This document shows positions 16,688 to 18,766 of a stretch of DNA of 64,000 nucleotides, one piece after another; the first letter of the stretch is position 1; each line of letters starts with the position of its first letter. Position numbers and translations under genes: made by a program. The stretch spans positions 7,501 to 71,500 of the forward strand of contig JASLMV010000012.1 of the NCBI GenBank assembly GCA_030746435.1. Reading direction: 5' to 3'. The notes under the pieces are model-generated. The model saw nothing but the letters and a program-made list of their open reading frames with translations. It searched no databases and was not told the origin of the DNA. The stretch is from Gammaproteobacteria bacterium (GTDB lineage Bacteria; Pseudomonadota; Gammaproteobacteria; Steroidobacterales; GCA-2729495).

Positions 16688-17344
16688 ATGGAACAGCTTC
16701 CCGAGTCTTTGCCGGACAACCCGTTACCGCTGCTAAACGAGTGGCTCAAACATGCGAAGGCGGCCGACGTCTTGCCGAACCCCGATGCGATGACACTCGC
16801 TACGGTGAGTGAATCGGGTGCGGTTTCCGCACGCATCATACTGTGCAAGATGCTGGTGGAAGAACCGGGCTACCTGATCTTCTATACCAACTACGAGTCT
16901 CCCAAGGGCATAGACATAGGCTCCGGCAGCCGTGTAGCGGGAGTGTTTCACTGGGACAAACTGGACCGCCAGGTGCGTATAGAAGGAATAGCGGTCCGGT
17001 CACCGGACGACGAAAGTGACGCGTACTTCGCAACCCGCGACAAGGAAAGCCAGATCGGCGCATGGACAAGCGTCCAGAGCCAGCCCCTGGGCTCCCGCCA
17101 GGAACTCAAGGACAAGCATGTCGCGACAGCCCGGAAGCTGGCCGATCTGCAGGATGAGTCCGGTAAAACAGAAATCCCAAGGCCGCCGTTCTGGGGTGGC
17201 TATCGGATCTGGATCGACAAAGTAGAGTTCTGGTGCCGGGGTGAGGCGCGGCTGCATGATCGCGGCTGCTGGACGCGATCGCTGGAAGCCTCTGACAGGG
17301 GTTTTAAGGTGGACGACTGGACCTGCACCCGTTTACAGCCCTGA
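16688..17344 (+). CDS. pdxH: Pyridoxamine 5'-phosphate oxidase
   Basis: FMN enzyme producing pyridoxal 5'-phosphate from the pyridoxamine or pyridoxine phosphates. The 218-residue product shows MTLATVSESGAVSARIILCK, FYTNYESPKG and the C-terminal WGGYRIWIDKVEFWCRGEAR followed by LHDR, the standard end of the family. It lies 21 bp after the formaldehyde dehydrogenase gene and is probably co-transcribed. A 648-bp non-coding stretch follows, containing the candidate small RNA unit described separately. Confidence 0.95.
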   Translation: MEQLPESLPDNPLPLLNEWLKHAKAADVLPNPDAMTLATVSESGAVSARIILCKMLVEEPGYLIFYTNYESPKGIDIGSGSRVAGVFHWDKLDRQVRIEGIAVRSPDDESDAYFATRDKESQIGAWTSVQSQPLGSRQELKDKHVATARKLADLQDESGKTEIPRPPFWGGYRIWIDKVEFWCRGEARLHDRGCWTRSLEASDRGFKVDDWTCTRLQP

Positions 17345-17580
17345 CGCCTGGGCGCCCTTGTGGGCCGCCAGGATTTGTCGAAAATATTTACAAAAAATTG
17401 CACTTGTGGGCGTTAAACCCAGCCTATGCACCGCTTTTCCACACCCGGGTGGGATGGATACGGTACTCAGCATGGATCCTGGCCACATTTTCAGGCCCCC
17501 GATGGAAACTTAACTGCATATCTGGCAATTGTTTGTAGTGGGTTCCGCAAGAGATTTAGGGGCTTTCAGTGCGTCGACTT

Positions 17581-17635
17581 TGTTTACAGGTCGCTAAAAT
17601 CAGCTAGAAAATGCCTGAATCAGTGATTTGTAAAC
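17581..17635. promoter_or_regulatory. Inverted repeat upstream of the sigma-54 promoter (possible enhancer)
   Basis: Half-sites GTTTACA (17582-17588) and TGTAAAC (17629-17635) are exact reverse complements, 47 bp apart centre to centre. They lie about 30-80 bp upstream of the -24 element. This position suits an activator needed by sigma-54 polymerase, but the spacing is wide and the assignment is a guess. The rest of 17345-17662 holds no credible gene. It contains only an isolated palindrome, CACCCGGGTG, at about 17442-17451 and AT-rich sequence. Confidence 0.3.
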
Positions 17636-17662
17636 GATTGATTTTCTGAATTTTAAGTAAGA

Positions 17663-17680
17663 TTGGCACGGCTTTTGCTT
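17663..17680 (+). promoter_or_regulatory. Sigma-54 (RpoN) promoter
   Basis: TTGGCACG, 4 bp, then TTGCTT. The invariant GG (17665-17666) and GC (17677-17678) are separated by exactly 10 bp, as the -24/-12 consensus requires, and every core base of TGGCACG-N4-TTGC is matched. Transcription would start near 17690 on the plus strand. No coding gene starts until 17993, beyond an intrinsic terminator, so the promoter appears to serve a short non-coding transcript. Confidence 0.78.
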
Positions 17681-17689
17681 GTTTTATTA

Positions 17690-17909
17690 CTGCGCACAAA
17701 AAAGGTTTCTGTGACGCCGGGCTATTTCGACATCTGAATACAGACATCGAAGCCAGAAGATACGGATCAGAAGAAGAACAATAAACAATAATAAGAAGAC
17801 CCGTAAACAAAAATAATAATCCACCACAGCCCATAGCGCTGTAGCAGAAACCGAATTCGCGACAACAACAATAACCCGTACACCCCGCTTACCCAGCGGG
17901 GTTTTTTTT
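17690..17909 (+). ncRNA. Candidate CrcZ-like sigma-54-dependent small RNA with ARN-repeat tracts
   Basis: About 220 nt between a sigma-54 promoter and an intrinsic terminator, with no convincing reading frame. A 5' hairpin spans about 17719-17754 (TTCGA and TCTG pairing with CAGA and TCGAA around AATA). A second hairpin spans 17826-17842 (ACAGC/GCTGT). Between and after them lie single-stranded-looking ARN triplet runs: five at 17771-17785, four at 17787-17798, five at 17806-17820 and four at 17864-17875. ARN repeats bind the distal face of Hfq, and the AAnAAnAA motif is the Crc/Hfq target. CrcZ and CrcY of pseudomonads combine exactly these traits and are RpoN-dependent. Existence as a transcript and Hfq titration are both inferred. 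Confidence 0.62.
17883..17909 (+). terminator. Intrinsic terminator of the candidate small RNA
   Basis: A perfect 6-bp stem CCCCGC/GCGGGG with loop TTACCCA is followed immediately by eight T residues on the plus strand. It lies about 200 nt after the predicted sigma-54 start and 83 bp before the ABC ATPase gene, so it should separate the two units. Confidence 0.9.
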
Positions 17910-17992
17910 GCCTGTAGAAAAGCCCTTGCCCGGCAGCGCTGTAATGCCTCAAGCTTGGGGTTGTTTTATGCGATCAGGAGAGCATTCCCACC

Positions 17993-18766
17993 ATGGAAGC
18001 CAGGCTTCATTGCAATGGCCTGACTGTGTCGGTTGCAGGCCAGGAGCTTGTTAAAGACCTGCAGCTCGATATAGAGCCCGGGTCTTTCGTGTGTGTGCTC
18101 GGTACAAACGGTGTAGGCAAAACCCTGACCCTCCATACCCTTGCAGGATTAAGGCCACCGGCTACCGGTGATGTGACGGTGTGCGGTGATTCACTCAGCA
18201 CACTGGCCCGCAAAGATGCGGCCGTTCGGCTGGGTTTACTTTTACAAATCTATGAAGATGCATTTCCGCTGTCAGTAATGGATATGGTCCTGATGGGCCG
18301 CTACCCACGCCTGAGCCTGTGGCGGTGGCCCGATGACCGGGACCTCGACGCAGCTCGCAAAGCACTGCAAAAGTTTGATCTCGCGGGCCTCGAAGACAGG
18401 GTTATTACTACTTTATCCGGCGGTGAACGAGAACGCGTAGCGCTGGCAACTCTCCAGGTGCAGGATCCCGCGATCTGGCTCCTGGACGAACCCATGAATC
18501 ATCTCGATCCGCATCACCAGCTCAGTGTGCTCGACATACTTAAGGAAACGGCTTGCAACGGTCGTGTCATTTTAACCACCCTGCACAACCCGGCCATGGC
18601 GGTACGCTATGCCGACCATGCACTCCTGTTATACGGAGATGGTGAATGGGAGTACGGTACTGCCGCCGAACTCCTCGAACCTGCACGTCTGGAGAGGCTT
18701 TACCAGACACCGTTCGACTACTACCGCAATACACAGGGTGAACGTACGCTACTTATGCCCGCGTAG
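17993..18766 (+). CDS. ABC transporter ATP-binding protein, likely cobalamin import (BtuD-type)
   Basis: ATPase of an importer for B12 or an iron chelate. The 257 residues include Walker A GTNGVGKT, a Q-loop region (LLLQIYED), the signature LSGGERERVALA, Walker B WLLDEPMNHLD and the switch His in TTLHNPAM. It is followed 58 bp later by the adenosyltransferase gene, and the matching permease and binding-protein genes are nearby, which favours cobalamin. A CAGGAGA just before the ATG resembles both a Shine-Dalgarno sequence and part of a B12 box, but no riboswitch fold was recognised. Confidence 0.87.
   Translation: MEARLHCNGLTVSVAGQELVKDLQLDIEPGSFVCVLGTNGVGKTLTLHTLAGLRPPATGDVTVCGDSLSTLARKDAAVRLGLLLQIYEDAFPLSVMDMVLMGRYPRLSLWRWPDDRDLDAARKALQKFDLAGLEDRVITTLSGGERERVALATLQVQDPAIWLLDEPMNHLDPHHQLSVLDILKETACNGRVILTTLHNPAMAVRYADHALLLYGDGEWEYGTAAELLEPARLERLYQTPFDYYRNTQGERTLLMPA

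Follow-up and report, generated by a model that had tools for sequence, protein, structure and literature searches.

To our knowledge, CrcZ-type decoys of Hfq are known from pseudomonads, where they are tied to carbon repression. Other RNAs with relevant features are the class II Hfq-dependent small RNAs, such as ChiX, MgrR, and CyaR. That CrcZ acts as an Hfq decoy is stated in two reports (PMC4063720, PMC9890229), and the subsite of CbrB is given in another one as TGTTAC/GTAACA (PMC6296734). In the case of proteobacterial PEP-CTERM genes, the text of Haft et al. (2006, PMC1569441) describes an upstream 17-nt motif 1, which ends with TTTACA and is followed by a sigma-54 motif (motif 2) after a spacer of 32-92 nt (mean 62.8), and uses phylogenetic profiling to attribute motif 1 to the response regulator PrsR. 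An RpoN-dependent PEP-CTERM gene has been reported, and control by PrsK/PrsR has been stated, in more recent papers (PMC9850573, PMC9012009).

The window analysed here, by which we mean the whole stretch of 64,000 nucleotides, was proposed in the earlier note to encode a CrcZ-like small RNA outside the cbrAB context. This proposal holds in that the RNA is of sigma-54 type, rich in ARN triplets, and without an Rfam family, but not as regards the inverted repeat suspected as activator site. The conserved upstream activating site (UAS) is of the PEP-CTERM type. Results of our analysis suggest, with a probability that we put at roughly 0.6, that the RNA is activated by PrsR and sigma-54 and occupies the distal face of Hfq, in a CrcZ-like action outside the CbrB/Crc system.

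The RNA locus, its promoter, and its upstream activating site

The locus (Table 1) occupies, according to the sequence and the list of open reading frames (ORFs), an intergenic gap of 648 bp (17345-17992) between an ORF which, following the reading of its sequence in the earlier note, we take to be pdxH and an ORF which we recognize as presumably that of a btuD-like ABC ATPase. The description of this gap as one that holds a complete non-coding unit, with a consensus -24/-12 promoter and a strong intrinsic terminator about 220 bp past it, was borne out, and both elements are kept in the relatives. The gap appears to hold a free-standing, conserved small RNA gene, whose transcript we infer to start near 17690, as predicted from the position of the -24/-12 element. 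A small ORF in the RNA was rejected as a candidate, as the longest frames vary in start and length between the 30 RNA loci described below, and no ORF with a shared start, frame, and length was found across them; loci L015-L019 and L029 have one frame in common over the conserved P2/core DNA, which elsewhere is closed or has no start.

Table 1. Coordinates of the RNA locus and its neighbours in the window
Feature	Position	Strand	Remarks
pdxH, upstream neighbour	16688..17344	+	ORF; upstream in 9/30 loci
Second GTCG-N7-TTACA copy, possible extra activator site	17377..17392	+	pattern match
UAS GTCG-N7-TTACA, predicted PrsR enhancer	17573..17588	+	conserved in 30/30 loci
Sigma-54 promoter TTGGCACG-N4-TTGC (-24/-12)	17663..17678	+	-24/-12 match in 30/30 loci; rpoN in genome
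Putative ncRNA, ~220 nt	17690..17909	+	start predicted from promoter; 30/60 genomes match, own included; alignment A1
P1 5' arm (GGUUUCUG)	17704..17711	+	at least 6 contiguous pairs in 30/30 RNAs, best of 12 offsets
Hairpin P2 (UUCGA..UCUG/CAGA..UCGAA)	17726..17751	+	88-90% of alignment cells paired
Conserved core GCCAGAAGA, 3' of P2	17752..17760	+	first 8 letters also in f7 RNAs
ARN run 1, 5 triplets	17771..17785	+	
ARN run 2, 4 triplets	17787..17798	+	
ARN run 3, 5 triplets	17806..17820	+	
P1 3' arm (CAGAAACC)	17845..17852	+	pairs with 17704-17711, long-range stem
ARN run 4, 4 triplets	17864..17875	+	within near-invariant block UUCGCGACAACAACAANAACCCGU
Intrinsic terminator with T tail	17882..17909	+	stem 17882-17902, then T's to 17909
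btuD-like ABC ATPase, downstream neighbour	17993..18766	+	ORF; downstream in 26/30 loci

A DNA search with positions 17560-17920 as a query covered 60 genomes, 37 of the own family (f1) and 23 of other families of the order, and matched the RNA locus in 30 of them, the own genome included (30/37 in f1 and 0/23 in the other families). In six of the 37 f1 genomes, no copy of the RNA was found by the DNA search or by the composite promoter pattern described below. The similar part of the aligned loci runs from the upstream element to the terminator. The alignment of relatives suggested in the earlier note indicates that promoter, ARN runs, and terminator are co-conserved, as each of the 30 homologous loci has the UAS, a -24/-12 element, from two to four ARN runs of four or more triplets, and a terminator with at least seven T's. 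The exact pattern of the 3' block occurs in 26 loci, all on contigs of metagenome-assembled genomes (MAGs) and nearly all assigned to Gammaproteobacteria, Chromatiales, Nevskiales, or Pseudomonadota only, with one Rheinheimera; as many of them come from the same genomes, they are not independent of the set of 30 loci. In three loci (L008, L018, and L031), the downstream sequence is too short to judge whether the neighbour is btuD-like. Cobalamin riboswitches were found on the minus strand near the RNA locus, past the btuD-like gene, in L009 (405-644) and L025 (335-601).

The UAS reads GTCG-N7-T[TG]AC[AG] in all 30 loci, of which 23 have the exact TTACA and seven are one base off (TGACA or TTACG), and its distance to the GG of the -24 element is 76 bp in 28 loci and 75 bp in the remaining two. 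Taken with the base that precedes it, the UAS of the window makes a 17-nt motif, which ends at 17588 and is followed by a 74-nt spacer and then by the -24/-12 element, in agreement with motif 1 as presented in the text of PMC1569441; this fit covers the length of the motif, its 3' end, and the spacer but not GTCG, since the letters of the 5' half are given there in a logo figure only. The T before TTACA is present in only 40% of the UASs. The UAS is predicted to be a PrsR site of the PEP-CTERM/exosortase promoter type, and since it is of this enhancer type, a regulatory link with the exosortase/PEP-CTERM system, and not with CbrAB/Crc carbon repression, is likely. The activator site that had been suspected in an exact inverted repeat, GTTTACA (17582-17588)/TGTAAAC (17629-17635), was rejected: the repeat exists, with its left arm falling within the conserved element 17573-17588, but the relatives have not kept the right arm. 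The second GTCG-N7-TTACA copy of the window starts 287 bp upstream of the TGG in the -24 element. Two tandem sites of the same sequence lie directly before the genome's own prsR (G000, C5, 45272-45309), with no -24/-12 match downstream by our pattern; autoregulation of prsR through them was rejected, and they are not used here as support, because tandem sites are present in only one of 30 prsR loci.

Fold and ARN content of the RNA

The four ARN runs of five, four, five, and four triplets described in the earlier note are indeed present. In the RNA, 18 ARN triplets lie in runs of at least four and the AANAANAA motif occurs 11 times; dinucleotide shuffles average 1.4 and 0.7, respectively, and neither value was reached in any of 300 shuffles. 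The RNAs of the 30 loci carry 8-21 triplets each in such runs, and the fraction of shuffles that reach their ARN triplet count is 0.010 in L010, 0.023 in L031, and 0/300 in the other 28. In the predicted folds of the 30 RNAs, the mean unpaired probability of ARN runs is 0.92 vs. 0.46 elsewhere.

The fold of 17690-17909 has a z-score of -4.9, and none of 200 shuffles folds as well. Both sides are changed at five of the eight pairs of P1, and sliding its partner by one column lowers pairing from 83.8% to 48.4% or 53.9%; L010 is misaligned by one column at P1 in alignment A1. In the whole named structure, 24 both-side-changed cells were counted (12 of them in P1) vs. 9.8 in shuffles (0/500). RNAalifold applied to A1 gave only 11 pairs with a covariation term of -0.45, without P2 and with a different 3' helix. 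Of the two hairpins proposed previously, the first (17719-17754) was confirmed and is retained for the most part, in the form of P2; the second (17826-17842) is not kept across the alignment.

Outside the ARN runs, the near-invariant segments are GCGCAC close to the 5' end, GCCAGAAGA, and, surrounding the last run, UUCGCG...CCCGU. The conservation of the block that precedes the terminator goes beyond what a pure sponge would need and could point to base pairing. The core GCCAGAAG is also found in 20 of the 21 RNAs of family f7 and in L131, and a P1-like stem of at least seven pairs (GUAACUG/CAGUUAC), the partner being the best of 80 offsets, is present in 20 of the 21 f7 RNAs; L198 of this family lacks the core and has only four pairs in the P1-like stem. 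The core was not found in the RNA-like stretches of families f4, f6, f9, and f16, which retain ARN motifs.

Composite promoters in the order and class

The composite of both promoter elements (GTCG-N7-TTACA, N50-80, TGGCA-N6-TTGC) occurs in 39 of the 60 genomes, with 0/60 for the reversed-pattern control. With the spacer set to N60-90, it occurs in 66 of 129 genomes of the order and in 23 of 184 genomes of the class, the reversed control giving no match in either set. The single composite of the own genome is the promoter of the RNA. Our survey of downstream sequences comprised 95 distinct composites, excluding the 30 f1 RNAs; three more (two of G038 and one of G056), all with PEP-CTERM-like tails, were left out. 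The downstream stretch was RNA-like (at least three AANAANAA motifs) in 30 cases, flagged by a regular expression for a PEP-CTERM tail in 42, and neither in 23, some of which resemble cut or missed PEP-CTERM genes (L150, L233). The RNA-like class consists of 27 stretches sorted by script and of L161, L218, and L224, which have at least three AANAANAA and PEP tails that are spurious by eye. The number of AANAANAA per 200 nt is 3-11 in the RNA-like class vs. 0-1 in the PEP-flagged one and 0-2 in the others; as the RNA-like class is defined by its AANAANAA count, this contrast is partly circular, and it is the gap between the classes, not their existence, that constitutes the result. A terminator-like stem with a T tail follows in all 30 RNA-like stretches by a looser script, applied without a shuffle control, and in 17 of them by the strict one.

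Inspection by eye marks L165 among the 42 PEP-flagged cases as spurious and L176 as doubtful. In a scan of forty of the proteins (those other than L165 and L232), 28 score over the cut-off of a sorting-domain model (27 of TIGR02595 and one of TIGR03370), and 38 match some model with PEP-CTERM in its name at E <= 0.01, with no such match for L176 and L189. The RNA-like composites come from six families, namely f1 (G006), f4, f6, f7, f9, and f16. They are carried by 21 of 28 f7 genomes, and G051 has two ARN RNAs behind composite promoters; in the 28 genomes of f11, no ARN RNA was found by the composite pattern. A composite of at least 104 bp precedes 25 of 30 RNAs vs. seven of 42 PEP-flagged genes (Fisher p = 1.4e-8, with related genomes counted separately). 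IHF-like sites (at least 8/9 matches) between UAS and promoter were counted, without a control, in 12/30 f1 loci, 24/30 other RNA-like loci, and 27/42 PEP-CTERM loci, and we do not argue for a role of IHF. Results of the survey suggest that within the order one composite promoter type precedes either PEP-CTERM genes or diverged, ARN-rich, terminator-bounded RNAs. Outside the order, our filter left L239 and L244 as stretches with a terminator and no ORF, their AANAANAA counts being 0 and 2, respectively. Three AANAANAA are found in L251, where they belong to an ORF leader, and two in L235, which has no listed ORF. Our claim is thus confined to the order.

Several composites precede sequences of other kinds. 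In three f16 genomes, with composites of 98 bp (L146, L172, and L173), the downstream ORF has 158-168 aa and no PEP-CTERM end, and the C-termini have a sequence in common (LLANPPF, LLSNPPV, and LLANPPL, respectively). These ORFs are possibly a further class of PrsR targets, and a 151-aa ORF behind a 93-bp composite in f5 (L187) may be related to them. In two f9 genomes (L163 of G057 and L165 of G044), the composite lies before a short frame that starts with MERID and is just below 50 aa, and in another family of the class (L243 of G172) it is followed by a very short Gly/Met-rich frame. The stretch behind the composite of L169 (G046) is bounded by a terminator and has no ARN runs; it may be a further small RNA.

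Regulators, proposed mechanism, and relation to known systems

The genome from which the window comes encodes an exosortase, RpoN, PrsR (720.9 bits vs. the NCBIfam cut-off of 502.6), a piece of PrsK (372.4 bits vs. 300), and Hfq (E 8.2e-30), the distal-face segment of which we take to be ordinary. Thus, rpoN and hfq, which the earlier note had proposed to look for, were both found; of crc and cbrAB, named along with them, neither a Pseudomonas-type Crc nor, among the sigma-54 activators, a recognizable CbrB was detected. PrsR scores over the cut-off in 32 of the 37 f1 genomes. A protein search identified a partial prsR gene in G018 (84% identity over 218 residues) and no ortholog-like match to PrsR in G001, G011, G021, and G027; the RNA is present without a detected PrsR in G011 (98% complete), G001, and G021. 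As to the other sigma-54 activators of the own genome, NtrC scores over the cut-off, an NtrX-like and a PilR-like protein, assigned by best match and neighbours, score below it, and a PAS-PAS protein has no receiver. No CbrB was recognized among the five activators, three of which (NtrX-like, PilR-like, and PAS-PAS) are named by no over-cut-off model.

Among the three Exo_endo_phos proteins of the genome, no Crc of the Pseudomonas type was found. One of the three, L067, adjoins what we take to be a pyrE-like gene, in line with the pairing of crc with pyrE. It scores 259 bits against P. aeruginosa Crc and 318 bits against its closest solved relative, the putative exodeoxyribonuclease chain 2jc5, presumably the Neisseria AP endonuclease. 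It has LQE, GDWNIAH, WRIDYQ, and FSDH where Crc has LQD, GSLYVAH, WRFDYQ, and FSQH, and the residues altered in Pseudomonas Crc are, we assume, catalytic. Since L067 is closer to 2jc5 and retains the residues altered in Crc, a Pseudomonas-type Hfq/Crc complex is unlikely, and a decoy of Hfq only is the natural reading.

The combination of a sigma-54 promoter with an ARN-rich RNA, as in CrcZ, might indicate a true homologue of CrcZ/CrcY that serves the CbrAB-Hfq/Crc carbon repression. We find this hardly credible, given the PEP-CTERM type of the upstream motif, the absence of the CbrB subsite TGTTAC/GTAACA from 17560-17664, the lack of a recognized CbrB, and the nearest Crc homologue, which retains the residues lost in Crc. 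Moreover, with respect to the known CrcZ-type models mentioned in the earlier note, Rfam, which we believe to include a CrcZ model, gave no match for the RNA: there was no CrcZ among the matches of 17345-17992 up to E 10, nor any at the gathering threshold in the window or in 20 loci. Near-misses such as Trp_leader, Hrs1, and AgvB were rejected, being far below gathering. It is conceivable, albeit unlikely, that the same RNA is driven by another sigma-54 activator, e.g., the PAS-PAS protein of L059, NtrC, or the PilR-like protein, as further activators of this kind are encoded in the genome and G011 has the RNA without a detected PrsR. Against this stand the type of the UAS, which is that found before PEP-CTERM genes, and the occurrence of PrsR over the cut-off in most f1 genomes, with the partial gene in one more.

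A more serious, though still doubtful, alternative is that the PrsR/sigma-54-activated RNA is a class II base-pairing small RNA, with ARN runs that serve solely to dock it on Hfq and a conserved segment that pairs with target mRNAs. The near-invariant segments outside the ARN runs, the core shared with nearly all f7 RNAs and with L131, and the U-rich tail of the terminator are consistent with such a role, but the number of ARN runs and triplets is higher than docking seems to require, and the RNA-like stretches of f4, f6, f9, and f16 have kept the ARN motifs without the core. That the RNA instead acts in cis, as leader or attenuator of the btuD-like transporter gene that follows it, which is suggested by the frequency of this neighbour (Table 1) and by its occurrence, judged by frame, also after the f7 RNA L198, seems very improbable in view of the terminator with at least seven T's in every locus. 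The btuD match begins about 850 bp past the RNA in L006 and about 760 bp past it in L017, and none was found within L005; the listed frames 3' of the RNAs of other families are, by eye, not btuD-like except in L198 and mostly unrelated.

We return to the reading of the RNA as a decoy that occupies the distal face of Hfq, with Hfq binding and titration being plausible. Based on the sequence features presented above, we infer transcription of the RNA, binding by PrsR and by Hfq, and titration over base pairing. PrsK would sense a condition, upon which PrsR would bind GTCG-N7-TTACA and activate the sigma-54 polymerase at the -24/-12 promoter, in the manner predicted for the genes of PEP-CTERM surface proteins. 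The resulting RNA of about 220 nt, ending in a U-tail, would fold so that the long-range closing stem presents unpaired ARN runs. It would bind several Hfq hexamers at the distal face and withhold them from other messages, and Hfq-imposed repression would be eased while the matrix programme is on. As a promoter of the matrix-gene type is combined with a body that looks suited to Hfq capture, the RNA probably links the building of the matrix to a wider control of expression. Whether one may go further and assume an undescribed, order-wide family of Hfq decoy RNAs, driven by PrsK/PrsR and sigma-54, that couples the exosortase/PEP-CTERM programme to global post-transcriptional control without Crc is, in our estimate, evenly balanced. 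A family of decoys would agree with ARN content and promoter geometry that are kept while the sequence drifts, and the two RNAs of G051 may be analogous to CrcZ and CrcY of pseudomonads.

If the design of CrcZ does recur here, controlled by another two-component system, in RNAs of unrelated sequence, and apparently with no Crc involved, Hfq titration would be a recurring regulatory device, and the PEP-CTERM/exosortase system would gain a post-transcriptional arm. The stimulus of the sensor PrsK was called obscure in 2006 (PMC1569441), and the RNA might be used to report on PrsK signalling. The conserved promoter geometry, in turn, provides a handle for finding further members. Our literature search found no report of a PEP-CTERM-linked Hfq-binding small RNA, the titles and abstract openings of papers on PEP-CTERM and small RNAs containing no such RNA.

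With class II Hfq-dependent small RNAs, the RNA of the window has in common the ARN runs and the terminator with a U-tail, but it has more ARN runs and a promoter of the sigma-54/PrsR type. Its control region resembles the cis-site of PEP-CTERM/exosortase genes, as far as the latter is described in the text of PMC1569441, in motif length, in the 3' end, and in the order and spacing of enhancer and promoter, and the genome encodes PrsK, PrsR, and exosortase, as expected of the PEP-CTERM regulon; unlike in that system, the product here would be an RNA and not a PEP-CTERM protein. Like CrcZ and CrcY of Pseudomonas and Azotobacter, it is predicted to be a sigma-54-dependent, ARN-rich (CA-motif) RNA that occupies the distal face of Hfq, and it has a regulator site upstream of the promoter. 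Unlike them, it has a UAS of the PrsR type, not that of CbrB, does not lie beside cbrAB, has no match in Rfam, occurs in a genome without a recognized Pseudomonas-type Crc, and has its own P1-closed structure and core. Most likely, this RNA with a promoter of the PEP-CTERM regulon works like CrcZ without being a CrcZ.
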